Source: a virus
Length of the DNA stretch: 25,143 nucleotides
Virus record (IMG/VR): IMGVR_UViG_3300029319_000470
Coordinates: 1-25,143 of that record
Strand: one strand, 5' to 3'
The stretch's first letter is position 1. The number at the start of each line of letters is the position of its first letter. This document shows positions 7,701 through 23,680 of this stretch, piece after piece. Made by a program: the position numbers and the translations under genes. The notes under the pieces were generated by a model. That model was not told where the DNA came from and searched no databases. It was given only the letters and a program-made list of their open reading frames with translations.

Positions 7701-9085
7701 ATTATGCGACAGATGCTACTGATCAAGGTGTAAGTGGTGGAACTGCCTTAGCCTTTGATGGAAACTTAATCGGTAATCCTACGTCAGTCAGTAATCCAAG
7801 TGACATCACTATTGCAGATATAACATTTGATGGAAACAGTTCAAATAATTTAATGTTTGAACTTGATGATGAAGATAATCTAATGTCATTTGAGAATGGA
7901 ACTTCAATGTTATTTAAAGATATGGAGATTCGAAATAGTTCTGGTGGTGGATTATATGCAAGAAATTCAAGACGTATCTCAGTAGAAAATTGCACTATTG
8001 TTGATGGTGGACAAACAGATCGATATCCTATTCGACCACTCGATGTTCAAAATTCTGAAACTGTTCGAGTAAATGATTGTTTGTTTGAAAACTTTGCAGG
8101 CCCACTAGACGTATCAGCAACAACAGTGGTATCAACTGGTGGAAATATCATTCGAAATTGTGGTAGTGGTATTGATGCTTATGCAACTGGAAAGATTACT
8201 ACAACAAGTAACGTAATTCTTGGCCCTGCAGATGAGTTTATTGCTTCTCCTGATATTTACGATACAGACTTTGATTCAATCAATATAAGTATTGAGGCTG
8301 GTAAAACATTCGAAGGCCCAGAGTTACTTTATCTTGAGAATGGTGAAGGTAAAAATCTTACAGATGTTGATATTGTCACAGGAATTGGAACGATGGTTGG
8401 GTTGTACAGTACAAATCGTATTGCAACCCTTGGTACTTCTTTCTATGATCTTGATATTATTACACAAGGCACTGCTACAGATCCAGCAACATCACCTGCA
8501 ACCACTAAAGAGGATGGTTACATTCGACTTTATTCGAATCCCACTAATACTGCTAAACTTGCACAATACAAACATCCATTGGGTGCAGGAGTTACAAATT
8601 CAGATCTTGGATATGAAATAATCGGAACTGAATATAAACAAATACCAACTGGATTCACGACTTCTGTTGGTATTTCATCTGGATACTGGGCTGGACAAGT
8701 TGGTGGAACAACTAAGGAATATGTAAATATACCAACTGGTGGTGCTGGTATTGCAGTTACACAATACATAATTAGACTTTCTGATGCTAATCAAGCGGAT
8801 CGAATTACAATTGGGGATATTGTGAAATTACCTGCACATAGTTTTAGTCCTGATATTAGTGATGGATTAAAGATAGCAAGTCCTGGTATTAATAAGGATG
8901 AAAACAATACCACCATCGATGCGGATATTGGTCTTCGAGTTGATGAAAAAATTGGTTCAGATCGTTTTGTATTGTCTGGATTCAGAGTGACTGCTCAATC
9001 TCATGGAGCAGAGTCAAATGATCAAGACTATATATCTATAAGGAGAGTATTCACTATCGCTAAAGGAAGAGTCGGAGTTTATTAA
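1730..9085 (+). CDS. Giant virion structural protein with two beta-helix-like regions
   Basis: This 2451-aa protein is probably a baseplate- or fibre-associated structural protein. Residues 1-230 resemble a pectate-lyase-like beta-helix (SLTRPFVTIQRALIEAA, VLVYPGEHTI, GTSIIGLDLRKTKIRP). Residues about 295-1750 hold a string of small beta modules of the type HGLxxxDxxxIxGVG...NGxYxVxGV, near 297-350, 637-700, 840-902, 1047-1194 (interrupted), 1217-1292, 1336-1407 and 1662-1750. A fibre motif VGINTLNPHNNIELDVNG lies near 1580-1598. Residues about 1934-2184 form a second, clearer beta-helix (TKALSDAVSNTVASGGNYLS, LPSGTYLTNKLLIPDKFTLK, then strand-turn repeats with ENCTIVDGG and VNDCLFENF). No catalytic residues can be asserted. 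The start is fixed by an in-frame TAG at 1715-1717. The next gene begins two bases after the stop. I recall the N-terminus from marine T4-like phages as an unnamed structural protein. Confidence 0.93.
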   Translation: MPLSRLENFLVNTDGNILYVNPSDLDATDSFDNKGNSLTRPFVTIQRALIEAARFTYQSGFNNDRFDRTTVLVYPGEHTIDNRPGLGIKDKPTEGLKYVQANGQEINAVTANIELNNSSIFDLNNVDNVLHKFNSVYGGAIVPKGTSIIGLDLRKTKIRPLYVPNPDVLDSVIPRSALFRVTGGCYFWQFSLFDANRSVYYSTDFTEKRNPNISHHKLTCFEYADGQNIVPGFSTTDLQQYYFKLMNAYGTDTGSRIIPPFPTNKDFEPNTPETKIVGDLSSDDNAIKELTSSGLNATALTENAHGLTVDDQILITGVGSTDLYNGTYRVSGVGSDRQFSYQLNSDAIDNSVSDTDLDGARVIIEADTVTGASPYIFNCSLRSVFGMCGLHADGSKSTGFKSMVVAQFTGIGLQKDDNAFVIYSKDTGDYLNSVNARASGLSKTPLYLNPNSQYRKRYDNFHVKVSNDAFIQAVSVFAIGFSNHFLAESGGEQSITNSNSNFGNKALVSKGFKPNAFNRDDTGYVTHIVPPKDLQKEETNIVWRVLDPIKTKNVGISSHLYIAGENDVTNPPTSIINGYRIGARKDDKLYLNVNIDGTLTTFSSPILMDVGEGNGDGPVSEKKFTVGRVGVANSITSNVISLTTNHNFLNGESVRVFADDGRTPDGIELGRKYFVITTGLAADRIKLANTVNDALSGKEIVESINTKGGVLTVQSIVNDKIPGEIGHPIQYDESQKNWYILGSAGATNTIFTGFNTGDNATKISENNSSTYVLRKSETRALNDRIYRLRYVIPKDFSGANTAKKPEKNYVLQESKSVGVDATFTNVITNRNPKVIAGVTSSTSVVTVTSSLPHKLSVNDVVNIKNVKSSANTTGVGNSGFNGKFTVTGTPTATTFTFANSTLAGTFTDTQISDAFGGELSDLPVFERSEYDTTYTVQEVETIQDYISNEQDGIYYLTCLIGNVSPTVSEFSDLRYKQSFLNLYPTVDKDNPNNDPVQCVTAASNENLGKVILNNPLNSITKEATINYVRDNRVGFAVTGATSNNSGTTTLTTDVEHDLNAITDLSITSPTGTGYGSAGTKYNVSLTDEDGGSSGQGATANITVNGSGKVTAIQIVNGGSAYGVGTTLAIGGGTGGVATVASINNCVGNAMQVIGVGSVDDRTNGGFNGLYKITGVPSTKSVTYTHVAKGQTTGTSAGIYTGPVSATSGIFTLLDEAVGFSTMVGVAGTTLTGIVTVTTSSNHNLAVGNKIKIAGLTGNNASVYNGSDFIVREIVGVTTFTMKAPIGISTDESGEIYKYSLNSFGQDTSLASEKIAGTLSPLLTGISSKITNTNGIDVPSTVSTGDLYGVTTIRLESTIGFNVGDFVQIGNEIVRIKSKNSDDIRFDGYRGVLGTQSVAHSKGELVRKINVIPSELHRFSSIRASGHTFEYIGYGPGNYSTSLPQKIQKQIEPDKELLAISREEKGGVTFFSGMNDRGDFFSGQKEEPKELFLGDAGDTNFAIFDDVFIRNTLRVGGGPNQNLPSEFNGPVNFTKKVTSTDIEDGIEAIKLLVKGTGTIDPLFQVGDDTSPSLIVNQDSQNVGINTLNPHNNIELDVNGTIRANVYENFKLTDLPDETEEPTYARNRIIKVKDDGSGYEMIDPHELSAYELRSLGVSNDGTIYVGTGANVSGQNKFKISGISTSRFFVGERVKIFGVTADGDNATVPTPVLTVGTDKVEIVRVPSDISTGSTARTYYYWQAQYHLRNGKVGIATQIAKEGESYSGSDPRKGVMNAELDSFNDANHNVLKLSRTNTDHGILIYRQIFTHPDGNAATKDAKESEDNADPSAAKLIAVLGQKELKNATAGISWIDYGVYEQPFWSAKGTVNEFKELHIGDTTETHQIHFPTTVGVGTNVGRRGWDIAEITNVGSGNIRVAGKFSTNGVAGFGTDNSVKVVHDNTKALSDAVSNTVASGGNYLSLPSGTYLTNKLLIPDKFTLKGVGKNSKIKMQYYATDATDQGVSGGTALAFDGNLIGNPTSVSNPSDITIADITFDGNSSNNLMFELDDEDNLMSFENGTSMLFKDMEIRNSSGGGLYARNSRRISVENCTIVDGGQTDRYPIRPLDVQNSETVRVNDCLFENFAGPLDVSATTVVSTGGNIIRNCGSGIDAYATGKITTTSNVILGPADEFIASPDIYDTDFDSINISIEAGKTFEGPELLYLENGEGKNLTDVDIVTGIGTMVGLYSTNRIATLGTSFYDLDIITQGTATDPATSPATTKEDGYIRLYSNPTNTAKLAQYKHPLGAGVTNSDLGYEIIGTEYKQIPTGFTTSVGISSGYWAGQVGGTTKEYVNIPTGGAGIAVTQYIIRLSDANQADRITIGDIVKLPAHSFSPDISDGLKIASPGINKDENNTTIDADIGLRVDEKIGSDRFVLSGFRVTAQSHGAESNDQDYISIRRVFTIAKGRVGVY

Positions 9086-9087
9086 AA

Positions 9088-12000
9088 ATGCCTGATAACA
9101 CTAATGTTAATAATAATGCGTCTGTGGTCGTTGTAGGAAGGACTGCTCCAGTCCCTCCAGGTCAACAAAAAGCTGATAAATCTGTTCCAGTCGTTATTGC
9201 AAGTGATCAATCAACGATTCCTGTTGCAGAACAAAATAAGGTACAGTCAGAAGTTGCACTTTCACTTTTAGGAATACCAAGATCGGAAGTTGCACTTGGT
9301 ATATTTGCAGACGTTAACACCTATGATGTAAACCCCACAGAATGGGCAGCAGAACCTGAAAATAGAGAAACATTATTACTTTCTGATTATCCTGAATATG
9401 TTAATTCTGCGACAAATTTCAACCATGGATTAAGTCATATTCCTGAAGAATCTGGTGCATTAGTTGAAGCACCTCCTGATCGAACTGCTGTTCTGACATC
9501 AAAAAGATTTTTTAGATATCAACCAGGTCGTGTATCTGCTGCTACATTTGGTGTAAAAACCACAATAATGGACATTAGTTCAACAGATAAGGAAGAGGAT
9601 GGTAATGCACCATCAGATGATCAAGACATAGGTAGTGTAGTACATAATCCAGCTATTCGTAAGTATGGAATATTTGATAACTTTGATGGGTATTATTGGG
9701 AGACAAGAAATAATGGACAAGGAGATAACTTTAGTGTAGTAAGAAGAACTCAGTCTCTATTATTTAATAATCCACTTGATTTTTCAGGATCTGATGGACA
9801 AACACAAGATTTTGGTGCAACAAATCCTTTAGACATTAGAGAACCAAGAGGAAACGAAACTAATGATGGTCTTGATGATGGAGACAATCTTCAGTCAAAT
9901 AACGCAATAGTAAGTTATAATCCTGGTGCAGGTGGTAATACTAATAGATATCCTGTTGGTCATGATTCAACTCCTGCAGGATACAAAAATATAAAACTGG
10001 GTGATCTTGTCATCTATCGTGACAATTTGATGATGACACATGCTGGTGTTTATGATCCATCTCTTCTTCAGGACGAGATGGAGTATGCTTTTAGTACAAT
10101 ACCTGGTAATAATCAACTCGTTTTTAGCATAGCTGAAAATTCTGGTGCAAGTGGATTAGGGAAAACCATAACAGGTGCAGTTTATGATATTGATACTGGT
10201 CTGATGACTGTCACAACTGCAGGAGATCATGGATTCCAACCTGGTAAATTTGTGACTCTTGCTGGAATTGGAATGACATGTAAGTATAGTTACACTAATT
10301 TTGATGGAACTGGTACTTTGATGGATGGTACTGGAGGAATGGTTGATGCAAGAGAAGTATATCCAAACAGAACACATGGTTATAATATAATTTCTGTTCC
10401 ATCGGGCAATACTTTTGAAGTAAATGTCGGTGTTTCAACAGTCCCTACATTCTTTAATGCTGAAAAATCAGCAGAAGTTGGTGCTCGTGTTGTTGGATTA
10501 ACCACAGGTCAATACGTGTCCTTCAAAAAAGGGTCTCCCTCTGGAGGAACTTCAACCTTAACAGATCATAAAATTTATAAAATCAAAAATATTAGTTTTA
10601 GTAGAACAGGAGATAAAAATGGTGAACAAATAAAAATAAAACTTAAGGATTTGACTGATGGAATGGGTACAACTGAGGGGGCATCTTATAATCCTACTGA
10701 TAATACAGGAACTAATATTACGTTCACTGGAACTGCAACTACTGAAGCATCTGGAAACAGATTAATTACTCCTGTTCCATTTGTGCAACCAGTTGCAAAC
10801 GATATTATATACAGTGATGGTAAATCTAGAAAAATATATGGTACTAATGATATTAAACATTCTGGCATGTTCCCTTACATGTATAAGAATACCAATGATA
10901 CAGAACAAGTAGGTTACATTGATACAACTTTGGACACACAAGTTTCAAATGTTTCATCATTGAGAAAACAGATAGAAAGTATTAATAAGTTTTACCAAAA
11001 TTGGATAAATCAGAGCATTAAAAAAGAATTTTGGAACGTTTATGAGTATCGTGTTCCAAGATCAAGATTTAGTGGTGATCGTTTAGATAAGTTAACCGAT
11101 AATTTATTATACAGTGATGTGACTGCAGAAAATCGTGCTGGTACAATTGTTAGAGACTCTGTAGCCGCACCAGTTACAGATACAAGTATATGGGATCTTG
11201 AATTTGATAAAGTTACTATGTACAAGATTGAGTTCTCATGGTACGGTGCTGTTGGTGCTTTATTCTTGGCATATGTTCCAGTAGGTGCGGGTGAAGCCAG
11301 ATGGGTACGTGTTCACCATTTAAGAGCATCTAACCAGTTAAAGGGTTCATCATTAGGTAATGCAACTTTACCGATCACATACCTCGTTTACGGTGGTGGA
11401 GGAGGAGCAAATCGAACTGATCGTTATGGTTATGACAATACTAAAAGAAAACTTCTTCCGTTTGCATACGGATCAGCATCAGAACATATTGTTAAGTATG
11501 GTGCTTCATACTATATTGATGGTGGAGATCGTGGAACTGTTAAATTATTCAGTCATGGAACACAAACAGCACAACCTATTTTTGGATCAAAGAGAACTTT
11601 TAGTCAAGGAGGTAACAATAATCAAATATCAATTACACAAGCAGATGCAGTTAATAATGCGGCTGATCCGTTTATCACTGGTGGTCAGAATATTACAGGT
11701 ATTAATTCCTCATATTATGTTGGTGCAAAGGTAATTACTGGAAATCCATTAGATCAAAATGTTGAGATCGTGTATGTGGATAATCGAAAGTTTCATTTAA
11801 ATGTCCCTCTCAATATGCCAATACCAAGTAGCGTAGATATAATTGTGAATCGTCCGACCACTTTAATTGGACTAAAGTGTAGAGATTTTATCACCAGTAG
11901 TCAAGGAAAGGATGTTCGAAACCGTACTCAGGTATATCCAACAAGACTATCAACAGGATCTGAAGGTTCTGTGATTAAAGTTGACCTACTTAAAACACCT

Positions 12001-12630
12001 ATATTCCAAACATCATCTGTTACAAGTGGAAACTTTCAAATTTCAACTTCAGATGTTAATATTGGTAAGAGAGGAACACCAACTAATCTACCAAATGTAA
12101 GTAACCCTACTTACTTGGAAGAGGGGAAGGGTACTTATGGCTACATGAGAGGAAAATTAGAAGGTGACGCATCAAGTAAAGTAGTGACAATTCTTGGTTA
12201 TCTTGAAAGAAGACCAAGCACTAGTACGACACCAGGATATTATTTTAATGCTTTGAAATCTACGACATTAAATGTAGTCCTAAGTAAAGATGTTAAGTTC
12301 TTACATGAGGGACAAATTGGCCCAACTGGTATTGCTGCGACTTCAACTCAAGCAGACTTTACATTAGATCCATTATCATCAATCAAGGTAAGTCCTCAAG
12401 ATAGAGCACCGATTCCTAAGACGGGGACGATTGTTGCAAGTTTATTCATACCTGCATCTGGTGAGGAGTTTGACTTATCTTCATACTTTGATTATAATAA
12501 AGAATATCTATCATTCCCACTTACAAATGTGGTAGAGAGTTTATTTGTTGTTGGATCATCAGATAAATTATACGATCCTTCTGCTGGAATATCAACAACA
12601 TCTGCGAGTATCACTTGGGAGGAACAGTGA
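9088..12630 (+). CDS. Large structural protein, paralogue of the next gene
   Basis: This 1180-aa protein opens with a phage motif DKSVPVVIASDQSTIPV (about residues 30-46) and then LLGIPRSEVALGIFADVNTY (60-79). It shares an ordered set of blocks with the next protein: FRYQPGRVSAATFG near 142-155, VTMYKIEFSWYGAVGALF near 709-726, VPVGAGEARWVRVH near 730-743, and YGASYYIDGGDRGT near 804-817. Between the first two blocks sits a beta module (MTVTTAGDHGFQPGKFVTLA, near 372-391) like those in the giant upstream protein. No enzyme motif, signal peptide or membrane segment is visible. A GGAG at 9074-9077 lies 10 bases before the ATG. The tight spacing places it in one transcript with its neighbours. 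It is probably a baseplate or tail-fibre component; the exact position in the virion is unknown. Confidence 0.92.
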   Translation: MPDNTNVNNNASVVVVGRTAPVPPGQQKADKSVPVVIASDQSTIPVAEQNKVQSEVALSLLGIPRSEVALGIFADVNTYDVNPTEWAAEPENRETLLLSDYPEYVNSATNFNHGLSHIPEESGALVEAPPDRTAVLTSKRFFRYQPGRVSAATFGVKTTIMDISSTDKEEDGNAPSDDQDIGSVVHNPAIRKYGIFDNFDGYYWETRNNGQGDNFSVVRRTQSLLFNNPLDFSGSDGQTQDFGATNPLDIREPRGNETNDGLDDGDNLQSNNAIVSYNPGAGGNTNRYPVGHDSTPAGYKNIKLGDLVIYRDNLMMTHAGVYDPSLLQDEMEYAFSTIPGNNQLVFSIAENSGASGLGKTITGAVYDIDTGLMTVTTAGDHGFQPGKFVTLAGIGMTCKYSYTNFDGTGTLMDGTGGMVDAREVYPNRTHGYNIISVPSGNTFEVNVGVSTVPTFFNAEKSAEVGARVVGLTTGQYVSFKKGSPSGGTSTLTDHKIYKIKNISFSRTGDKNGEQIKIKLKDLTDGMGTTEGASYNPTDNTGTNITFTGTATTEASGNRLITPVPFVQPVANDIIYSDGKSRKIYGTNDIKHSGMFPYMYKNTNDTEQVGYIDTTLDTQVSNVSSLRKQIESINKFYQNWINQSIKKEFWNVYEYRVPRSRFSGDRLDKLTDNLLYSDVTAENRAGTIVRDSVAAPVTDTSIWDLEFDKVTMYKIEFSWYGAVGALFLAYVPVGAGEARWVRVHHLRASNQLKGSSLGNATLPITYLVYGGGGGANRTDRYGYDNTKRKLLPFAYGSASEHIVKYGASYYIDGGDRGTVKLFSHGTQTAQPIFGSKRTFSQGGNNNQISITQADAVNNAADPFITGGQNITGINSSYYVGAKVITGNPLDQNVEIVYVDNRKFHLNVPLNMPIPSSVDIIVNRPTTLIGLKCRDFITSSQGKDVRNRTQVYPTRLSTGSEGSVIKVDLLKTPIFQTSSVTSGNFQISTSDVNIGKRGTPTNLPNVSNPTYLEEGKGTYGYMRGKLEGDASSKVVTILGYLERRPSTSTTPGYYFNALKSTTLNVVLSKDVKFLHEGQIGPTGIAATSTQADFTLDPLSSIKVSPQDRAPIPKTGTIVASLFIPASGEEFDLSSYFDYNKEYLSFPLTNVVESLFVVGSSDKLYDPSAGISTTSASITWEEQ

Positions 12631-12633
12631 TCT

Positions 12634-15600
12634 ATGAATGGAGGAAAGGATGTTAAAATTGGGCACGATAAACGCCCAGTATCTGTAGTACCTAATGATG
12701 AACAACCGTTATTTAATATTTCGAATGGTGTTCGTCTAACTGATGAGTTTGGCAATCCACTTGTAACTAAGGTAGATCAATTTTTTGTTGCAGATACATC
12801 ATCAGAAAGATCAACTTCAATCGTATTTCCAGAAAAACCAAATGACAAATATAAAATTCTAAAAAAATCACAAGTTGGAGTAACAACTGTAACTTATGGT
12901 AATGTAATTCATGTTGATACCACAGTTACTCAAGTTGGGTTCACTACCTATTCAATTCCCGTTCTTCGAGTTGGTGGGAGTGTAGTTGGAGCAGCAGGAA
13001 CGGTAAAGAAGGCCAATGATTCAATAGTTTCTCTTGATGAGTTCCCAAATAAACATGAAGTGGGACTCGTTAATCCAATATCTGGAGATCCAAAATATTT
13101 ACATTTTACTACAGAAAATGAAGACTTTATTGATAAATTAAGATTAAATGATATCGTTTTAGATTTAAATGCAAAATCTAATAGTGGTGCTTTTATTACA
13201 AAAATAAAAAAACATCAAAAAAAGGTTCAAATTTCTGGATCAATAAAACCCGAAATAATAACTGACAGTATTAGATTTATACGTGCAAGTGATTTCATTT
13301 TTGAATCAGACAATGTTCTGAAAGTTGAAGAACAATTCAAAGAAACAAGTGAAGTAAGTAGCACTTTACTTGGTGTCAATCGTGCAGAAGTTCAGTTGAG
13401 TTTGTTTTCAAATGTATCCTCTTACGGAATACAAAAAGATGATTGGGAAACATATAATTATAATTCTGGAACTAGTAAATCATCTTGGGAGACAAGAGTT
13501 AATCAGATTTATGGTAGAAAATATCTAGCAAGAATTGAAGAAGAGACACAAGAATCTGCGATTAAATTATCTGCATTTCCTGTTCCATTCTCATTTCCAT
13601 ACGGAGAAGATTATAAAAAAATTGGATTGTATAGACCAAATACATGGGAACAGTATAAAAGATTTATAAATTTAGGAAATGCTGCTTACTTTTATTATTC
13701 TAATCCTACAAAATACGGTCACAGTTATGGTGCTGCACACGCAAATAAATTTTTAAATCCTGGTGATTCAAGGGTTGATGGTAACGATATAATCTATGCT
13801 AAATTAGATGGAAAACCAGATGATTTTACATATGCTTTTTCAAAAATAGACATTTGGACAGATACTTGGAGACTTTTGGATAGAAGAGAGTTTCTTGATC
13901 CTATGACTAATCAGAGGATAGGGATAACAGACTTGATAAGTCAATTAAACGCAGCAAAAGTAACTGAATACACTGTTCCAGGCGAACTCGAAGCTACTAG
14001 ACCTGGATATAGTGATAACTATCAAAGATACAGTGCGATTCAATCAAGAAGAGTTTTTAGATACCAACCAGGAAGAATAAGTGGATTTACATTCGGACTC
14101 AGATCCTCAAAAGAAAGCATAGGAGGATGTGCATTAGAATGGGGAATTTCTAATGAAACAGATCAATATATGTTTAATGTATATGCTGGAAGACTCTCAA
14201 TTATTCGTAGAAGCACTGTTCCCTTAAGTGATTCTGTTCTAAGAAGAAACAATTTAGATCCAACTACAACACCATCAGTTCGTATAAATGGAGTTCAGTA
14301 TGATGGGCAAGTTCAACCAGAAATTCCTAGTGGTGATCCTTTTGATGTAATAGATGAATTTGGGCCATATAATACTCCTGCTAGTGCAGAAGAAAGAGCA
14401 AGAAAATACTACACTATTAGAATAGATAGAGATGATTTTAACGGTGACTCTCTGGACGAAAATGGCCCATCTGGATATAATCTACAATTAGATAATGTTA
14501 CTATGTGGAAAATTGAATTTGGTTGGTATGGTGCGATTGGTGCAAGATTTTATGCTTATATCCCAGTAGGAGCAGGTGAAGCCCGATGGGTTGTTATACA
14601 TACTCTTGTAATTGAAAACCAGTTAGGAGAACCTTGTCTACGAGATTCTTACTTTAGATTTAAGTATAGTTTGAGAAGTGTTTCAAATAGAACTCTATTC
14701 GAACCTCAATTTTTATATAAGTATGGTGCTTCTTACTACATTGATGGTGGTGATGAAGGAACAAGTCAAGTCTATTCTGTGAACACTGGACTATCTCCAA
14801 AAGCGATTACTTCAAATGAAAGAACCCTCTTTGGAATAAGACCAAGAGAAATATTTACTAGTATATCAGGATCAGGTCAAAATGAAAAAATTGACGAAAT
14901 TGCAAATCGAAAATTAATTCTTCCAACTAAAATAAATTTATCATCTGATATATTGTCAGAGGTGAAAATTAGAACTTGTGTGGGTTGTCAAGGACACGCA
15001 CATGTGTTTACACCTGGTGTTCAATCTGGAGTGGGTGGTTCAGGATTTAAATTTACAAATACAAGTGGTAACGGAGTATTATCAAGAGAAATTAAAATTC
15101 ATTTTGTTTCAGCTGCAGATGGGGATGCAAATACAATTGAAATCGTATCAGATGATGGTGTGCTTGAAAATCAATTTACTGAGGACGACATTGATTCAAA
15201 AATAATTGCTCCATCTATTTTCAATGCTTACATTGCAAAATTAAGTAGTGGTGAAGTTTCTCCAATCAATGGTAAAACCTATTACAAATATGCAACAATA
15301 TATGGGTGGGGAAGTGGTTTAGATGGATATCCAAATTACAATGAATCATTAGATGAAGATGCAGGTGGAAGAAAAATTGGAGGGGCAAAAGTAAAAGATT
15401 ACGGTCAAGCAGGAATTACAACAAACATAGGTATTGGAGTAAGTTACCCACACACAGTTCGTTTAAGTAGTTATGATGATGTTCATTTTACTTCAGATCA
15501 AGAATTATCAGGATCTGAAATTAAAATACAATTTTTGAATCCAAGACCAAAGGATGGTATTTCTTCATATAGAAGCAATACGCATTGGTCAGATTTTATG

Positions 15601-16800
15601 ATTGGTGTAACTAATCAAAAACCAGTCATAACTGGCGGTGGAGAATTAGAGGGATGGAATATTTCTCATACAAATTATACATCAAGTGGGCCAAGTCCTT
15701 CACAACCTGGAATAACAACAACTGTTTTACCAAAAACAAATATATTATATGGTGAAAGTACTCATACTTGGGCTGGAATGAATGAGGATGGCGTTGAGGT
15801 TGAAGAGCGTTGGGCACCCGTTTCATTTAGAGCTAGAATGGGAGAGGATGTTAGAACTCCGATAGTTCCAAATCCATCTGGAGGAGTCTGCTCATCAGTA
15901 AAAGTTGAAGTTAGTGAAGCAGTAGATTTAGGTTCAAACTTAAAATTTGTTATTAGAAGAGATGGAACTGACCCAAATGGAGACACTCAAATAGATGGTG
16001 CACCAGATAATGAAAATTATTATTTGATTCATAAATCAGAGGATGCTGGCACGTTTGCTAATATCAGTGATTGGTTAAATGGTCAGGTAGTTTTTGAGGA
16101 TTCAACTGGAGAACCAGCTTTTGGTGGTGCTGCTAGTGCGGTTTACTTACAATCACAACCACTTCCCATTGGCACCGTTAATGATTACTTTTCTGGAAAA
16201 GTAGGTAAATTTATTAGAATTAGTGGGACTATGGGTTTTGCTGAAAATAAAGAAGGTATAAAAATTTTAGGTAAAACGGTCACATTATCAGGAAATAAAT
16301 TAAACGGAACTCCATTAAATGTTAAAACAAAACTTTTCACATATGCAGTTTACCCTCTATATCTTGTCGGTAAATTAAGAGACAATTCAAAAATAAATAA
16401 CATTATGATTACAGAAAAATCTGCAAATGGATTTGAAAAAACAACCTCTCCAAGATTATCCGTTTCGACAAATTCAAATGGATCTATAGATAATGCAGGT
16501 GGAAATGCTTTAAACGATAGAGAACCACCACCAAACTTTACGCTTGTTGATAGGTTGTCATCTGCAAAAGTTGATATTCAAAATTTGAGAACATTAAGAA
16601 ATTCAGTCATCAGGGATACTTTCTATGTTGGTGAAAATGAAACAAAAGAAGTTGATATGACTAGAATTTTTGGTGCAGATAGAAATGTAATCACACCAGA
16701 TAATCAAAATATTGAAGCAACTTTCATTACCGTAAAGGAAATATCCTCTGGTAAAACCAGTGGTGAAATTCAAAGCAGTTTAAATTTCAAGGAACAATAA
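12634..16800 (+). CDS. Large structural protein, paralogue of the previous gene, with CxxCxxHxH
   Basis: This 1388-aa protein carries the same block order as the preceding one: DKRPVSVVPNDEQ near residues 10-22, LLGVNRAEVQLSLFSNVSSY near 244-263, FRYQPGRISGFTFG near 474-487, VTMWKIEFGWYGAIGARF near 622-639, VPVGAGEARW-like IPVGAGEARWVVIH, and YGASYYIDGGDEGT near 697-710. It has about 180 more residues before the second block and a long unique C-terminal half. That half begins near a Cys782-x2-Cys785-x2-His788-x-His790 cluster, a possible metal site. The rest is beta-rich, ending in TRIFGADRNVITPDNQN and a short acidic/polar tail. A GGGAGGA at 12618-12624 lies just upstream of the ATG. The stop overlaps the next start by one base. 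The role is inferred as a baseplate or fibre protein. Confidence 0.92.
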   Translation: MNGGKDVKIGHDKRPVSVVPNDEQPLFNISNGVRLTDEFGNPLVTKVDQFFVADTSSERSTSIVFPEKPNDKYKILKKSQVGVTTVTYGNVIHVDTTVTQVGFTTYSIPVLRVGGSVVGAAGTVKKANDSIVSLDEFPNKHEVGLVNPISGDPKYLHFTTENEDFIDKLRLNDIVLDLNAKSNSGAFITKIKKHQKKVQISGSIKPEIITDSIRFIRASDFIFESDNVLKVEEQFKETSEVSSTLLGVNRAEVQLSLFSNVSSYGIQKDDWETYNYNSGTSKSSWETRVNQIYGRKYLARIEEETQESAIKLSAFPVPFSFPYGEDYKKIGLYRPNTWEQYKRFINLGNAAYFYYSNPTKYGHSYGAAHANKFLNPGDSRVDGNDIIYAKLDGKPDDFTYAFSKIDIWTDTWRLLDRREFLDPMTNQRIGITDLISQLNAAKVTEYTVPGELEATRPGYSDNYQRYSAIQSRRVFRYQPGRISGFTFGLRSSKESIGGCALEWGISNETDQYMFNVYAGRLSIIRRSTVPLSDSVLRRNNLDPTTTPSVRINGVQYDGQVQPEIPSGDPFDVIDEFGPYNTPASAEERARKYYTIRIDRDDFNGDSLDENGPSGYNLQLDNVTMWKIEFGWYGAIGARFYAYIPVGAGEARWVVIHTLVIENQLGEPCLRDSYFRFKYSLRSVSNRTLFEPQFLYKYGASYYIDGGDEGTSQVYSVNTGLSPKAITSNERTLFGIRPREIFTSISGSGQNEKIDEIANRKLILPTKINLSSDILSEVKIRTCVGCQGHAHVFTPGVQSGVGGSGFKFTNTSGNGVLSREIKIHFVSAADGDANTIEIVSDDGVLENQFTEDDIDSKIIAPSIFNAYIAKLSSGEVSPINGKTYYKYATIYGWGSGLDGYPNYNESLDEDAGGRKIGGAKVKDYGQAGITTNIGIGVSYPHTVRLSSYDDVHFTSDQELSGSEIKIQFLNPRPKDGISSYRSNTHWSDFMIGVTNQKPVITGGGELEGWNISHTNYTSSGPSPSQPGITTTVLPKTNILYGESTHTWAGMNEDGVEVEERWAPVSFRARMGEDVRTPIVPNPSGGVCSSVKVEVSEAVDLGSNLKFVIRRDGTDPNGDTQIDGAPDNENYYLIHKSEDAGTFANISDWLNGQVVFEDSTGEPAFGGAASAVYLQSQPLPIGTVNDYFSGKVGKFIRISGTMGFAENKEGIKILGKTVTLSGNKLNGTPLNVKTKLFTYAVYPLYLVGKLRDNSKINNIMITEKSANGFEKTTSPRLSVSTNSNGSIDNAGGNALNDREPPPNFTLVDRLSSAKVDIQNLRTLRNSVIRDTFYVGENETKEVDMTRIFGADRNVITPDNQNIEATFITVKEISSGKTSGEIQSSLNFKEQ

Positions 16801-19691
16801 TGGCACTCACTAACCCTAAACTTTTCGGTTTGAATGTTAAAAGCAATTTAAACGATCTACAAAATCCATCTACAGCTTTACAAAATCTTGGAGTAAATCC
16901 TCTAGATTTATCTGTAATTAGAGGTTCCGCATCTGCTAATATGGAAATTGTTGATTGGGTTAGTTTTTCTCGCTTAAAATCTCCAATTTATAAAATTTTA
17001 GATCGTTTTAATAAAGAATCTAACTCTTTTACTAATATTTTAGAAGAACGTGCAGGAATAGATCAAACTTTATTTGGTAATTTAAGTATTAATGGATCAG
17101 TAAGTGGTAGTGCAATTCGTTATCGTTATCTAGATGGGAATGGTTCAACCGCAGCTATAAGATTTGGAGATATATCAACATCAAGGGCAAGTGCATGGAG
17201 TTCTGCAGATCCAAGGGCAAATGATTCTAATCCTGATACTTCAAAATTAGCAAGGATTTCATTCGGTGCAAGGGTCGGCATTACTACTGGAAAAACTATA
17301 AGTGGTACTTATCAACCTAGTAGATTAATTTTCGGAACACAATCAACGGTTGAAAATTTTAACTATAATAATGTTACATATACTGGCCCATCAGGACAAC
17401 CAAGATTACAGACGACCATCATACCCGAACCAGTTGAATTTGAATCTGAGGAAGTAACATCAATAATTAAATGTAAAATTGGAACTGAAACTGTATTTTT
17501 ATATGCAATGAAAGGAATACCTATAGTATTTAAAGGTAGATTTTCAAGATTATCTGCTACTGTCACAGTCAGCAACGCTAATCCTCCAGTGAGTTGGAAA
17601 ATAGTACAAGTTGGAAATGAAAATCTCTATTCTAATTATGCAAATAAAGGTGACACCACTTCTAGTATTTACTACAGATCTCCAGTATCAAGAGATAGAT
17701 TTATTAAAATATATAAAAATCCAGATCAAATAAAATCAATCACAATAACAAGAGCCCTCATTGAAGATTTACCTACTGTACAGTTACAAGTTTGTAATGC
17801 CCTAGATTTTGCATTCAACAATATTAAAACACTTCCTGATTTTACTTTTCTTACACCAAATTTAAAGAATATAAATTTGAGACGTAATCCTTTACGTTTA
17901 TCTGATATAAAAACTGAAGATAGATTAAATGCAGCTGTATTGCAGAAATTTCCCCAAAACTTAACTGTGTTAAGACTTGGTGGATGTTTTTCTGGTTCGG
18001 TGGTTCCTAATACTGTGATAGCGGATAGATTTAAAAAGTTGACTACTATGGATTTGGATAGAAGACAAGGAGGTTCAACACTCCATCGAGATGATGATGA
18101 TACTGATGGATTTTGTCCATTAGTTTCAGATACTGTTACAGAATATAACATTGCTCGAAATAGTTTTCAGAACGTCCCTAGTACAAGCGGAGACGCTAAA
18201 AATTTTTATGATTTACCAAAACTAGTTACACTCGATTGTTACGCTAATGCTAATCTAAAATCTGAAGAATCACCACTGGCAAGTGCAGCTGCAAATCCTC
18301 CTAAGATTCGAAGCATAAATTTTAGTGCAAATGATTTACCTTTCCCGACTAATTTGAATGGTGTATCTAGTTTAGTAACATATAGAGCTCATGATAATGA
18401 CGGAGGAATAAATCAATTAGTTAATTCTGCTACTGGTGCTTACATATTCGATAATTGCAATGCTCTTGAAGAACTTATCCTTTTTAGATCTAACTTGGGA
18501 AAAATTAACTTTCCTGCTTCATTTAATAATTTGGCATTAACAACCATCAATATGTCAAGTACTAATGTCAAAGGTGGTAAACCAGGCGTTGCTGGAGTTC
18601 AAACATTAACTGTTTCTAGCATTGATTTGAATGCTAATACAATTACATTTACTGGTAATCACGGTATGAATACTTGTGATGATATACAAGCATTGAACGC
18701 TGCTGCTCAAGCAATAACTTATTTTGAAAATGCCACCTCTTCTCCTTCTCTTGGCACCACAAAATATTTTGGAATTAGAGTTGATGACACTACAATAAAA
18801 CTTGCTCTCTCTCGGAGAAATGCCCATTTTAATAATCCAATGGACTTGGATGGTGCAGGATCTGGTACAAGAACATTTCAAACTCAAGGAATATCTATTA
18901 AAGATGAAGATCAAGCTAGAGTGATCTATGAGGAAACATTTGAGAAAGCTGTTTCACTTAAAAGTCTCCAAATTACTTCCAATAATTTATTAACAAAACC
19001 AATAGATGAAAAAGCATTTAGAAAAAATTTAAATCTTGAATTGATTAGATATCAATCTGGTAGAAGAACAGGTGGCGAAATCACTAATTTATTTGATAAT
19101 AATGATAAATTAAAATTTGTATACCTTGCTAATAATGCATTTACAGGAACTCCTCCAAATTTTGCTGGAAAGGGTAACATTAGACGCATTGAATTGCAAA
19201 GTAATCAATTTGATGGAAACATACCTGCATTTTCTAACTTAAATCTTCTCTTTAGAGTTTATTTAAATAATAATAAATTAACTTCAATTTCTGAACCAGG
19301 ATCACTTGCAAGTTTACAATATTATTATGCACATAACAACGAAATTGCTGGTCAAATACCAGATTTTTCCTTATGTCCTAACTTACGAAATTTAACGTTA
19401 AACAATAATCAACTTTCAGGTTATAAATTAGGTGCGTTTAAGAAACTTTATAAAATAAAATTTATAGACTTATCATTTAATAGTTTAAGTGCAACAGCTT
19501 TAAATCAAATTCTAATAGATTTAAAAGATAATTGGCAAGCAGTAAAACGTGGAGGAGTTACGATTAATTTAAAGAATCAAGCAAATGGTGTGATTCCAAC
19601 TCCATTTGGAGACGGTATGAATGCAGCTCAAAAATTGGTAAATAATGGCTGGAGCATAGGAATCACTGGTGGGATTCAATCTGAAGATTAA
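16800..19691 (+). CDS. Leucine-rich-repeat virion protein with interrupted repeat array
   Basis: This 963-aa protein starts with a short helical segment MALTNPKLFGLN, followed by NDLQNPSTALQNLGVNPLDL (to about residue 36), which I recall from marine T4-like phage structural proteins. Residues 45-310 are beta-rich with a fibre-like section (GNLSINGSVSGSAIRYRYLD). Residues about 313-600 and 714-907 are leucine-rich repeats, with units such as IRRIELQSNQFDGNIPAFSN, LRNLTLNNNQLSG and KIKFIDLSFNSLS repeating about every 23 residues and including plant-like GxIP turns. The array is split by a beta module at about 600-700 (ANTITFTGNHGMNTCDDI ... TIKLALSRRNA). LRRs usually form protein- or glycan-binding arcs, so host recognition is a reasonable inference. 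AAGGA at 16789-16793 sets the start, which overlaps the upstream stop in TAATG. Confidence 0.93.
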   Translation: MALTNPKLFGLNVKSNLNDLQNPSTALQNLGVNPLDLSVIRGSASANMEIVDWVSFSRLKSPIYKILDRFNKESNSFTNILEERAGIDQTLFGNLSINGSVSGSAIRYRYLDGNGSTAAIRFGDISTSRASAWSSADPRANDSNPDTSKLARISFGARVGITTGKTISGTYQPSRLIFGTQSTVENFNYNNVTYTGPSGQPRLQTTIIPEPVEFESEEVTSIIKCKIGTETVFLYAMKGIPIVFKGRFSRLSATVTVSNANPPVSWKIVQVGNENLYSNYANKGDTTSSIYYRSPVSRDRFIKIYKNPDQIKSITITRALIEDLPTVQLQVCNALDFAFNNIKTLPDFTFLTPNLKNINLRRNPLRLSDIKTEDRLNAAVLQKFPQNLTVLRLGGCFSGSVVPNTVIADRFKKLTTMDLDRRQGGSTLHRDDDDTDGFCPLVSDTVTEYNIARNSFQNVPSTSGDAKNFYDLPKLVTLDCYANANLKSEESPLASAAANPPKIRSINFSANDLPFPTNLNGVSSLVTYRAHDNDGGINQLVNSATGAYIFDNCNALEELILFRSNLGKINFPASFNNLALTTINMSSTNVKGGKPGVAGVQTLTVSSIDLNANTITFTGNHGMNTCDDIQALNAAAQAITYFENATSSPSLGTTKYFGIRVDDTTIKLALSRRNAHFNNPMDLDGAGSGTRTFQTQGISIKDEDQARVIYEETFEKAVSLKSLQITSNNLLTKPIDEKAFRKNLNLELIRYQSGRRTGGEITNLFDNNDKLKFVYLANNAFTGTPPNFAGKGNIRRIELQSNQFDGNIPAFSNLNLLFRVYLNNNKLTSISEPGSLASLQYYYAHNNEIAGQIPDFSLCPNLRNLTLNNNQLSGYKLGAFKKLYKIKFIDLSFNSLSATALNQILIDLKDNWQAVKRGGVTINLKNQANGVIPTPFGDGMNAAQKLVNNGWSIGITGGIQSED

Positions 19692-19710: not shown

Positions 19711-20994
19711 ATGGCAATACCAAATCAGGGATTTAGAAAAGATTTAAATTTAAAAGAAACAGAAGTTTCAGAGGACTCAATAAACGCACTTGGAGGTGCA
19801 GGAATTTCTCAAGATATAATATTACTTCAAAATAATCTAAGAAACACATCAAGAATTGGTTTTAACAGTGTCGATGCACTTCAATTTTTTTCATTTGCAG
19901 AAGACTTAACAATACCAGTTTCAAAAATTGATATAACTAATACCAATATAATTATTAATTTAACTAACCCTTATGATGTAAAGGTGGGGGACATTGTAGA
20001 TCTTGATGGGATGACTGGTGGTGCAGCTTCCTTAAATGGTTTTTATCCAGTCAAAATTGTATCAACAGATTTAAAGGAAGTTACTCTAGCGAAGAGTTCA
20101 AATTACACTGAACAAGATGTCACTCTGACTTCGGTATCTTTTACAATTAAACCTCAAAATATATTTACTTTTACAAATGGTGATGAAATTACATTAAGTT
20201 CTGATGTAACCTTTACTGATGGCACTACCCCAGTAACACTTTCTCAAAGTAAGACCTACTACGTGGTTAATTCAAACGCAGTAAATAAATTTAAGTTATC
20301 AGAAACTTTAGATGGAAGTGCAATTACAATTCCAGCTAATGCGACTGCAACTCCAAACAATTTCTCATTTATTCGAAGCGATGCTGTTTATCAGGAAGAT
20401 TTAATTAATTTTATTGAACCTGAGTATCAAGATCAATCTGGTGAAGATTTTGACAGTTTTTCTTTTTTAGAAGATCACGGTACAATAAACGCTGCTTTTG
20501 ATGATACTAGAGTTAATATTGATGAAGCTGAGTATTTCATGAGTAAGAAATATAGAGGTGATAAAGATATGACCACTTCTGATATGATAAAATTTGAGGG
20601 GAGTCTTGCTTTAAATGATCCAACTGATAATATTACTGCAAGTGGTACAGATTTAACAACTAATCCAAAAGCACCTGGAGTTTATATTGGAAATACTCGT
20701 GCGTTTTCAAGTGACAATAACCCTTGGAAGGCACTAGGAACTAAAGGACAAAGTGATGCGAGACTTGAAACGTCATCTGACGAGGTAAAAATTGGTGAAC
20801 TTGCATTCTTGGATGGTACTGATAGTGGATCAATGGTGATTGAAGGGATTGCTGATGATGTAGAAAATGTGTCTCTAACTAATGGTGCAGTAAGTTCATT
20901 ATCAGGTGGAAACTTTACTCATAAACTACCAGTTACAGTTCAAGATGAACTCGGAAATCAAGAGACATATTTTTTACTTTTATCTGACTCCTAA
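19711..20994 (+). CDS. Virion structural protein with N-terminal docking-like segment and beta modules
   Basis: This 427-aa protein begins FRKDLNLKETEVSEDSINAL, then GGAGISQDIILLQNNLRN, a segment comparable to the N-termini of the 963-aa and 866-aa proteins here. Residues about 75-135 form a beta module (NPYDVKVGDIVDLDGMTG ... LNGFYPVKIV), and about 150-225 a second one (FTNGDEITLSSDVTF ... KTYYVVNSNAVNKFKLS). The C-terminal part includes RAFSSDNNPWKALGTK and ends with THKLPVTVQDELGNQETYFL plus a few residues, a pattern I associate with marine T4-like phage structural proteins. GGAG at 19699-19702 lies 8 bases before the ATG. It is the last gene of the unit, followed by an A-tract repeat and a terminator. 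Its place in the virion is unknown. Confidence 0.9.
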   Translation: MAIPNQGFRKDLNLKETEVSEDSINALGGAGISQDIILLQNNLRNTSRIGFNSVDALQFFSFAEDLTIPVSKIDITNTNIIINLTNPYDVKVGDIVDLDGMTGGAASLNGFYPVKIVSTDLKEVTLAKSSNYTEQDVTLTSVSFTIKPQNIFTFTNGDEITLSSDVTFTDGTTPVTLSQSKTYYVVNSNAVNKFKLSETLDGSAITIPANATATPNNFSFIRSDAVYQEDLINFIEPEYQDQSGEDFDSFSFLEDHGTINAAFDDTRVNIDEAEYFMSKKYRGDKDMTTSDMIKFEGSLALNDPTDNITASGTDLTTNPKAPGVYIGNTRAFSSDNNPWKALGTKGQSDARLETSSDEVKIGELAFLDGTDSGSMVIEGIADDVENVSLTNGAVSSLSGGNFTHKLPVTVQDELGNQETYFLLLSDS

Positions 20995-21054: not shown

Positions 21055-21075
21055 AAAAACCTTTTTAAGGTTTTT
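21055..21075. terminator. Bidirectional terminator between convergent genes
   Basis: AAAAACCTT (21055-21063), a TTT loop and AAGGTTTTT (21067-21075) form a perfect nine-base-pair stem with runs of T on the 3' side in both directions. It has only two G-C pairs per arm, so it is weak as a hairpin but has the right form. It closes the plus-strand unit. On the minus strand it contains the stop codon and last codons of the 866-aa gene. Confidence 0.75.
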
Positions 21076-23665
21076 TTGCTAATATTTTAAATTTTCTTGT
21101 GCTTGTAGATAAAGGTGTTTTAATTTCGATTGTTCGATTTACAGATTTATCGCCTCCAACAGCACTTGCATTTCTTGGACTATTTGATGTGTCATCTTGC
21201 AATATTAATGAATCGAATACTAAATTACCACTGTCAATTTTTAAATTTTCATATTCACTTTCAACAGTGTTTAAACCTTCTGCTGTTGCTCTGAATGGTG
21301 GAGAAGTATCTGTTGGTGGGCAACAAAGTGTACGATCACTGCTTAAGCTAGTGGCAGTAAATTGTGCATCATCAGGTAGAGGTGCTTTAATTCCTGGTGA
21401 CGGGATTGTAATTGTATTACCAGAAATACCACCCGTCGGTATTGTAATTCCAGATTCACCAAAATATATACCTTGAAGTGTCCATCCTTCTTGAACACTG
21501 TTAATATCTTCAACTTCAATTATCGTGCTTTCTTTTGGAAGACCACCTGGTATTGAATTTCCATCACCATCTTCAACTTTTGCAGTCAGACACCTCACTT
21601 GAGGTGTTTGATTAAATCTACTACAAAATTCAAGTAAGGTGTTGTCTCTCAATCCTTTGGAATCGTAGAAAAATAAATCTTGACCTTGAGTTACAGTAAC
21701 AGACACACTCAATTTTAATTGTGTTTTGCTGATTACTTCATCCACCACCGTGTAATCGGGAATACCATCACCAATCGCAATCATACCCTTCTGAACATCT
21801 TTGTGTATAGTTTGACTGCTGGAATTATCAAGTTCAGTTCCTTTAAATGGATTAGTTACTGAAGCACTTGAAATTGTATCGCTATTGGTCACTGCATTTA
21901 CACGAACTCTTCTTACGAGGCCACGATGATCAATAATCTTAACTAGGGCAGCATTTGTTACACCAATACCAGCATTAGCACCAGTCGCAGGTAATGCAGG
22001 AATATCCATCACAAGATAACCATTCAACACAAAATCTTTGACTCTGGCAAAAAACGGAATACTAGGTTCACCATTGTTACCTTGAGATCCTTGTCCACCT
22101 TGACCATCACCTGTTGCCTGAGTTGAAACAATTAAATTACCGACTTCAACATCTTGTGTAAATGATGAATCTCTTAAATTTAGAATAGGACTATCTTTTG
22201 TTACGATGACACCTACAGATCCATCATTTCTATTTGTTGGAGTTTTAACAGAAAATGTTTTTCTCGTAATAGCGGCTAAGTTTTTTGGAGGTGTATATCG
22301 AATATCAACTTTATCACTTGTGCTTAATCTTACATATTCGTTTGAATTAGTTCTACTTCCGATTGCGAAATTATCTTCTGCACCAGTTCCACCAAAAAGA
22401 ACTGAATTATCATAATACCTGTTAAAGTCTCCTTTTACACTATTTGAAAAATCATAATCAAGAGAAAATAATCTATTATATCTCAAATCCTGAAAAACAG
22501 GTTGATCTCTTTCTCTAAAATTAATATCAAACATTCTCTCTATATCTTTAGAATCAAAATTCTTATGATGAAAATATCTTAATCTTATTCGATATTTTTT
22601 ATATGCCTCTAATACATGAGTTTCAATATCATGTTTTATTTCTTCACCTAAACTTCTAGTAAATTTTACATCTTGATCAACAAATGATGCAGTAACTGAA
22701 TTTGCACTTCCCTCTGGAGGTGTAAGACTAATTACCCCCGTTAATTTATCAAAAAAATCAATTTTAGTTCCAGTAGCAATTTTTCCATCTAATACAACAG
22801 TCATACCAATACCAATTGTATTCATTCTCTCCAAATTTGAACTATCTACGAAAAGAGCATTAGAATTAGAATTTATATCTGCACTCATTTTAAATTCTGT
22901 TGATACTCCAACTCGCACATATTCTGTATATGTATCACCAGTACCGACTTTATTGTCATTCTCTAGGTATCCATCTCGGTTAAAGTCCATTGTAAAGTAT
23001 CCAGTGGATATAATATTAAATCTTACTGGGCCAGTTACTATTGGTACAAAATAACCCTCCCATTTTACACCTGTATTAATTTTACTTGATTGTGGGTGAA
23101 CTTTTGCTGAATATTGAAAATCACCCTCTTCCCAGAAGTTATCTGGTGGGATTGCACCGTCTGCGGTTGTCCCACCAAAAACCTCTCCTCTCTCGATTGG
23201 TGTTGTACCTGGATTATGATCATTTACATTAGTAATATTATATTCAAAATTATCATGCTCATCAAATAATATTTGGTCATTTTGAAAATAATTTGCAGTT
23301 AATCCGTTTCCACCTGCAAGTCTGGGATTTCCTGAAAATACTTCAACTTGATCAAGACGATTTTGATATGTGATTCTGGGATCAAAAAATTTATCATTTC
23401 CATCTAAAGTAACAAATCTTGATGCACTATCTACAACATTCAAATATCCTTCATTAGTTAATCCATTCGCAAATATATTTTCAATTGCATTTAAATCCTC
23501 TGCTATGAAAGTATTATCACCAGATAATCCCAATCCATTTAGCAAATTTGTTAGTGAATCTCTGGTGCTCGATAAATCGGATAAATTTAAACTCCTTCTT
23601 ATACCAATTCGATTGAATACTTTTTTTATTGGTATTTTTGCACTTTTGTCGTTATATAATGCCAT
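21065..23665 (-). CDS. PA14-like domain virion protein
   Basis: This 866-aa protein opens with a docking-like segment (RRSLNLSDLSSTRDSLTNLL then NGLGLSGDNTF, residues about 23-53). Residues about 119-385 resemble a PA14 carbohydrate-binding domain: GLTANYFQN, then VKWEGYFVPIVTGPVRFNII (200-219), GYFTMDFNRDGY (222-233) and YKKYRIRLRYFHH (355-367). The domain is interrupted near 262-335 by a small module (IGIGMTVVLDGKIATGTKI ... GVISLTPPEGS). A related unit occurs near 613-660 (KGMIAIGDGIPDYTVVDEV). A four-triplet collagen-like stretch GGQGSQGNNGEP lies at 523-534, and a Cys pair in LCCPPTDTSPPF at 780-791. No Shine-Dalgarno is visible before the ATG, which lies ten bases after the upstream stop. 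A host-surface sugar-binding role is inferred from the PA14 resemblance. Confidence 0.92.
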   Translation of the reverse strand: MALYNDKSAKIPIKKVFNRIGIRRSLNLSDLSSTRDSLTNLLNGLGLSGDNTFIAEDLNAIENIFANGLTNEGYLNVVDSASRFVTLDGNDKFFDPRITYQNRLDQVEVFSGNPRLAGGNGLTANYFQNDQILFDEHDNFEYNITNVNDHNPGTTPIERGEVFGGTTADGAIPPDNFWEEGDFQYSAKVHPQSSKINTGVKWEGYFVPIVTGPVRFNIISTGYFTMDFNRDGYLENDNKVGTGDTYTEYVRVGVSTEFKMSADINSNSNALFVDSSNLERMNTIGIGMTVVLDGKIATGTKIDFFDKLTGVISLTPPEGSANSVTASFVDQDVKFTRSLGEEIKHDIETHVLEAYKKYRIRLRYFHHKNFDSKDIERMFDINFRERDQPVFQDLRYNRLFSLDYDFSNSVKGDFNRYYDNSVLFGGTGAEDNFAIGSRTNSNEYVRLSTSDKVDIRYTPPKNLAAITRKTFSVKTPTNRNDGSVGVIVTKDSPILNLRDSSFTQDVEVGNLIVSTQATGDGQGGQGSQGNNGEPSIPFFARVKDFVLNGYLVMDIPALPATGANAGIGVTNAALVKIIDHRGLVRRVRVNAVTNSDTISSASVTNPFKGTELDNSSSQTIHKDVQKGMIAIGDGIPDYTVVDEVISKTQLKLSVSVTVTQGQDLFFYDSKGLRDNTLLEFCSRFNQTPQVRCLTAKVEDGDGNSIPGGLPKESTIIEVEDINSVQEGWTLQGIYFGESGITIPTGGISGNTITIPSPGIKAPLPDDAQFTATSLSSDRTLCCPPTDTSPPFRATAEGLNTVESEYENLKIDSGNLVFDSLILQDDTSNSPRNASAVGGDKSVNRTIEIKTPLSTSTRKFKILAKKP

Positions 23666-23672
23666 TTTTGAT

Positions 23673-23680
23673 TATTTATG
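23673..23680 (-). promoter_or_regulatory. Late-promoter-like box CATAAATA at a gene junction (doubtful)
   Basis: On the minus strand CATAAATA contains the TAA stop of the upstream fibre gene and ends seven bases before the ATG at 23665. With T4 spacing the transcript would begin within one or two bases of the ATG and be nearly leaderless. The match may be chance in AT-rich sequence, or an internal late promoter for the 866-aa gene. Confidence 0.25.

Follow-up and report, generated by a model that had tools for sequence, protein, structure and literature searches.

A conserved leucine-rich repeat protein in a tail-type gene cassette of cyanophages: a candidate virion adhesin

The window analysed here, a viral contig of 25,143 bases taken at its full length, encodes a 963-aa protein with plant receptor-like leucine-rich repeats (LRRs) among tail fibre and virion structural genes. 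What would such a protein, hereafter P6, do in a phage particle? An initial annotation, made from the sequence alone, had proposed a host-recognition or virion-interaction surface. The genes of the region are as follows.

1730..9085, + strand: p3, tail fibre of 2451 aa (PHROG 529 tail fiber protein; synteny)
9088..12630, + strand: p4, virion structural protein (PHROG 1645, 2.5e-16)
12634..16800, + strand: p5, virion structural protein immediately upstream of P6 (PHROG 1645, 1.6e-29)
16800..19691, + strand: P6, LRR protein of 963 aa, ATG start
19711..20994, + strand: p7, 427 aa (N-terminal motif; synteny)
21065..23665, - strand: p8, 866 aa, convergent (N-terminal motif; PA14-type domain)
23676-25142, - strand: incomplete fibre-like protein, its C-terminal stretch weakly TNF jelly roll-like (E 0.028, below cut-off)

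The ATG of P6 overlaps the stop codon of p5 (TAATG), which suggests translational coupling of the two genes. A sigma-70 scan gave matches at chance level, and the late-promoter-like motif ATAAATA was rarer than chance. The adjacent p4 and p5 are partial paralogues with several homologous segments (BLASTP 1.5e-24). A PA14 domain was detected in 8/15 p8 orthologues (best E 6.4e-6) and weakly in p8 of this contig (0.022); the domain likely makes p8 a carbohydrate-binding partner.

The presence of LRRs in the 963-aa protein was confirmed by Pfam profiles, by an AlphaFold solenoid and by Foldseek. LRR_8 (1.6e-13), LRR_4 (2.1e-12) and LRR_5 (1.7e-8) all exceeded their curated cut-offs, and the tandem LxxLxLxxN repeats satisfy the Pfam LRR criterion. 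The peptide IELQSNQFDGNIPAFSN, quoted earlier as an example of the repeats, is located at residues ~796-812. The best PDB sequence matches were plant LRR receptor kinases (5hyx, 2.8e-26; FLS2, 5.7e-25). LRR_8 matched 16/17 family members, and these E-values together with the conservation of the LRRs among orthologues exclude a chance origin of the signal. By its repeats and its predicted solenoid fold, P6 is a member of the LRR superfamily.

An AlphaFold model of P6 was built with a 59-sequence alignment. The predicted structure is a capped solenoid with some 18 repeats and short beta-strands, one per 22-33 residues. For residues 211-598 and 700-955 most pLDDT values were >90; the low-confidence parts were residues 1-210 and 599-700. 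In a Foldseek search of the model against the PDB, plant MIK2 came first (E=8.4e-13). The parts of P6 are listed below.

16800..17024, + strand: putative docking-type motif, about residues 1-75, common to p7, p8 and the S-TIM5 counterpart
17025..17429, + strand: conserved low-confidence region, residues 76-210, pLDDT mostly <60
17430..17747, + strand: beta-rich domain ahead of the solenoid, residues 211-316, with long strands, pLDDT about 78-96
17748..18593, + strand: LRR solenoid part 1, residues 317-598 (AlphaFold, repeat register), strands at 334, 357, 390, 416, 448, 477, 505, 527, 558 and 582
18594..18902, + strand: inserted "island" domain, residues about 599-701, without counterpart in near orthologues, pLDDT 37-57
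18903..19493, + strand: LRR solenoid part 2, residues 702-898, with a concave face rich in aromatic residues and regular repeats that have GxIP turns, strands at 722, 748, 773, 796, 819, 841, 864 and 888
19494..19688, + strand: C-terminal cap, with helix 898-914, strand 921-924 and helix 938-948 (AlphaFold)

The protein had been described as carrying two LRR blocks, and this did not hold. The orthologue L026, which lacks the insert, was predicted to fold as a single unbroken unit over residues ~190-817 (pLDDT mostly 90-98), with the same beta-rich domain before the solenoid; the two "blocks" of P6 are thus one arc interrupted by the insert at 599-701. The description of the repeats as plant-like units of ~23 residues with GxIP turns fits half of the protein: GxIP turns and a regular spacing of 22-26 residues are confined to the C-terminal half, whereas the N-terminal repeats are irregular (22-33 residues). 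Residues 76-210 contain the family signature ADISTSRxSxWSS, with D124-S134 invariant, and are perhaps an oligomeric stalk. We found no known fold in the N-terminal 316 residues, which matched no PDB or PHROG family.

To which viruses does P6 belong? When P6 or its LRR half was used as a direct query in IMG/VR, no relatives were found, because that scan uses short exact patterns only. Relatives were instead reached through the neighbour p5, which gave 17 IMG/VR contigs, and then through the family alignment (128 relatives, 80 kept). In each of the 17 p5-derived contigs an LRR gene occupied the corresponding position, and at least 83 distinct IMG/VR contigs carry a P6 gene (the 80 kept and the first 17, merged). 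The order p4-p5-P6-p7 on one strand with p8 opposed was found in nearly all contigs, and the fibre p3 is also part of the conserved cassette. The exceptions were extra ORFs before P6 (L015/L033, L028, L035, L049 and L050) and contig edges. P6 therefore sits within a fixed fibre and virion-structural cassette, which bears out the context first assigned to it. The p8 gene was the most divergent cassette gene in several contig pairs.

Three of the long cassette contigs have gp23, which is the capsid gene of T4-type phages, together with a gene for a tail sheath, and photosystem reaction-centre genes (psbA/psbD-type) were found in 7/12 cassette-bearing records tested. We concluded that the cassette is carried by cyanophages, and by more than a single lineage of them; the contigs with gp23 also support the earlier remark on related proteins in marine T4-like phages. 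Among 84,980 prokaryote genomes, the P6 gene gave two matches only, both in MAG contigs (L118 and L119) whose MAGs are named Opitutales and Cellulomonadaceae, and L119 has the cyanophage gene order. A bacterial or prophage origin of P6 was rejected on these grounds, and the MAG contigs carrying the LRR gene are probably mis-binned phage DNA.

The N-terminal 75 residues of three families (P6, p7 and p8) were compared as profiles (hhalign), with p4 and p5 as controls. The probability was 97.7% for P6-p8 (E 7.6e-11), 71.8% for p7-p8 (E 2.8e-5) and 31.6% for P6-p7, and about 0 for the controls p4 and p5 against the N-terminal motif. When whole contigs were searched with the p8 motif, p8 and, weakly, P6 or p7 were matched, all of them cassette genes. 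The natural reading is that P6, p7 and p8 would dock on one shared baseplate part, and the suspicion of a docking-like N-terminus gains support from the common motif.

A related cassette is found in cultured cyanophages. Homologues of p4 and p5 occur in S-TIM5 and its relatives, those of p5 in S-TIM5, S-TIM54, S-TIM61 and S-TIM66, and S-TIM5 (genus Aurunvirus) has the same gene order p3-p4-p5-P6-p7 and the same strand flip of p8. Its gene after p5 encodes AEZ65694.1 (H6WFW9; 1193 aa), a homologue of P6 (hhalign 98.9%, E 2e-17; hmmsearch 4e-23) that has LRR_1 above the Pfam cut-off and whose structure, predicted independently, was the top viral match to both models (E 1.1e-16 and 6.1e-20). The N-terminus of the S-TIM5 protein matched the P6 family (96.7%, E 8.7e-9, hhalign), and the S-TIM5 p8 counterpart also bears the motif. 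The counterparts in the four S-TIM phages resemble P6 in cassette position, strand flip, N-terminal motif and full-length profile homology. AEZ65694.1 differs from P6 in its length and in an aligned identity of about 20%, and its annotation does not say LRR. A portal fragment of S-TIM5 had no match among the cassette contigs searched.

The annotation of AEZ65694.1 reads "virion structural protein and packaging", with "hypothetical" kept for some neighbours in the record, and PMC10665884 cites the S-TIM5 source paper (Sabehi 2012) for the identification of a protein in S-TIM5 virions. By way of this annotation and citation for the S-TIM5 counterpart, P6 is likely located in the virion.

The concave face of the solenoid was analysed at four exposed positions per strand, in the strand register of P6 from this contig, which brings alignment error into distant comparisons. 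Tyr and Trp made up 20.7% of the exposed concave positions vs. 3.6% of the other non-scaffold LRR positions (about six-fold). Tyr, Trp, Phe and His together reached 36-54% in strands 748-864 vs. 2-23% in strands 334-527; the low aromatic content of the latter strands serves as an internal control and speaks against plain strand propensity. Alignment entropy was 2.63 bits on the concave and 2.13 bits on the convex side (p=1.4e-5). In pairs close to this P6, concave positions differed more often than the rest of the LRR in L002/L003 (64% vs. 39%, p=1e-4), L004/L005 (47% vs. 35%, p=0.04) and L009/L012 (47% vs. 25%, p=3e-4), and the pooled excess had p=6.5e-6. There was no concave excess in four of the eight pairs (L026/L028, L036/L038, L006/L007 and L030/L041), and the concave side was the more conserved one in L055/L066 and L048/L054. 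The comparison of variable LRR positions suggested at the outset therefore had a divided result: an excess in the clade near this P6, and none in half of the pairs.

In L002/L003, dN/dS was 0.46 for the LRR vs. 0.19 for the N-terminus; over the whole gene, dN/dS of P6 equals that of its neighbours p5, p7 and p8. The P6 genes of L059 and L069 are 96-100% identical in DNA up to about P6 position 849 and 89% identical thereafter, with an abrupt fall from 98-100% at that point, which suggests a recombination breakpoint inside the LRR. A diversity-generating retroelement variable protein was also considered and rejected, as no reverse transcriptase was found (RVT_1 was absent in 12 cassette-bearing records, most of them fragments).

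The island domain is a second source of variation. Its matches among isolate phages were only the tail fibres of the Prochlorococcus MED4 phages P-HM1, P-HM2 and MED4-213 (35-43% identity to a tail-fibre domain), and it was the only confident match when P6 was searched as a single sequence in isolate phages by tblastn. These fibres resemble P6 in the insert only and belong to another phage lineage and another locus. The related contig L011 has a copy of the domain in its p3 fibre. Recent capture at the DNA level was rejected: there was no DNA similarity, and the insert and its copy in the L011 fibre are only about 30% identical as proteins. The GC content is 0.355 in the insert and 0.324 in the P6 gene.

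Inserts of other kinds, for the most part unrelated, occur elsewhere in the family at a small number of recurring sites, which by P6 position lie after 402, 597, about 781-787 and 929-938. The site after 402 has several unrelated insert types, and site 597 has a second, unrelated type in L048/L054/L087. Most sites are 8-17 residues past a concave strand, i.e., in inter-repeat loops. Foreign domains have been tolerated repeatedly within the solenoid across the family. No insert had a Pfam identity above cut-off. Residues about 67-150 of p7 are absent from the orthologues L006, L007, L009, L012 and L013, so an inserted domain seems to have come or gone in p7 as well.

What P6 does can be approached through the S-TIM phages. 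Different Synechococcus strains served for isolation, WH8102 for S-TIM5 (L108) and CC9605 for S-TIM66 (L120). The two phages are almost identical: their P6 proteins are 99.7% identical and their cassette genes 98-100%, and the differences lie mainly in three large fibre genes. S-TIM54, isolated on the same host as S-TIM5, shares only 37.7% P6 identity with it, and in this pair few virion genes diverge as much as P6, p7 and p8. Near-identical P6 with different fibres indicates that strain-level host choice is probably set outside P6, and the three fibre genes are candidates for the host-range determinant. For this reason we consider it improbable that P6 is the primary determinant of host range, even though the concave divergence in the clade near this P6 and the clade-specific inserts would fit such a role; the S-TIM5/S-TIM66 argument is suggestive, isolation host not being host range. 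Some bacteria use LRR proteins as effectors. By analogy, P6 might be injected and act inside the bacterial cell, or it might bind seawater particles or other organisms, and giant-virus LRR proteins were the next structure matches after the S-TIM5 counterpart. We regard these roles as very improbable: an external part of the virion is indicated by the N-terminal motif that P6 has in common with p7 and p8 and by the constant tail-type gene cassette, and no catalytic domain, whether kinase, ligase or any other, turned up in the Pfam search of P6.

The main rival of an adhesin is a scaffold within the virion, in which the LRR arc would grip p4, p5, p7, p8 or the fibre and hold the adhesion module without host contact. 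P6 always stands beside the same partners, keeps pace with p5, p7 and p8 in its evolution, has a conserved concave face in some groups and stays 99.7% identical while the fibres change (S-TIM5/S-TIM66). A scaffold is harder to reconcile with a concave face that is aromatic-rich and fast-changing in several clades, with a solenoid that repeatedly tolerates foreign domains, and with the place of P6 among the most divergent virion proteins of S-TIM5 vs. S-TIM54. We judge it unlikely, if a serious contender. We consider it somewhat probable that P6 is a cyanophage adhesin attached to the tail or baseplate; this reading best explains the LRR fold, the setting among virion genes, the common N-terminal motif, the aromatic concave side and the pairing with the PA14-type p8. 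Binding to the host surface is our best guess from fold, surface and context. Of the surface first proposed for P6, the binding part is thus retained, and a dedicated host-range surface is disfavoured by the near-identical P6 of S-TIM5 and S-TIM66 with their different fibres.

As an adhesin, P6 would dock on the virion by the N-terminal motif common to p7 and p8, and the beta-domain is predicted to present the long curved LRR solenoid. The Tyr/Trp-rich concave face of the C-terminal repeats may then bind a ligand of the cyanobacterial surface, either glycan or protein, and P6 probably acts with the opposed PA14-type p8. Such a protein would play a secondary part in receptor binding, or would grip some surface feature that is widely shared, and would not set the host range at strain level. 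Its diversity would come from concave-face substitutions, recombination in the LRR and tail-fibre-type domains plugged into inter-repeat loops; P6 of this contig carries one such island domain.

Known phage tail adhesins are mostly trimeric beta-helices, lectin-like and Ig-like domains. If the adhesin reading is true, a conserved LRR adhesin would be a new recognition scaffold for virions of ecologically important viruses, spanning uncultured psbA-bearing cyanophages of several lineages. The label "virion structural protein" of S-TIM5 and its relatives would acquire a testable function, and the S-TIM5/S-TIM66/S-TIM54 trio on laboratory Synechococcus offers a direct test system.

Neither the LRR fold, on which plants and animals build recognition receptors, nor the occurrence of LRR proteins in phages is new. 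PHROG 6688, PHROG 21719, phage G Gp353, the LRR protein of Leptospira phage LE1 and the BspA-type LRR protein of Vibrio phage pir03 resemble P6 in the LRR part only. In a literature search largely without subscription papers, no description of LRR proteins in cyanophage virions was found, nor one of a conserved LRR virion protein with a fixed cyanophage cassette, a docking motif and plug-in domains. Plant LRR receptor ectodomains (MIK2, BRI1, FLS2 and RGFR1) share with P6 an LRR solenoid with GxIP-type repeats. P6 differs from them in that no membrane domain, kinase domain or other receptor-kinase Pfam domain was found in it, its N-terminal repeats are irregular and it bears a phage docking-type motif. 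It also falls outside the plant-specific LRR subclass (PS-LRR), which has regular ~24-residue LxGxIP repeats throughout, a pattern that P6 shows in its C-terminal half only. The likeness to plant receptors is most likely one of fold only. In BRI1, an island domain is inserted between LRR repeats, and by analogy the P6 insert resembles it in layout. Tentatively, and short of holding it probable, we propose a widespread, unnamed family of cyanophage adhesins built on an LRR arc, which would combine receptor-like change of an aromatic concave face with repeated capture of small tail-fibre modules as island domains in a limited set of fixed solenoid loops, an arrangement convergent with that of plant receptors such as BRI1.
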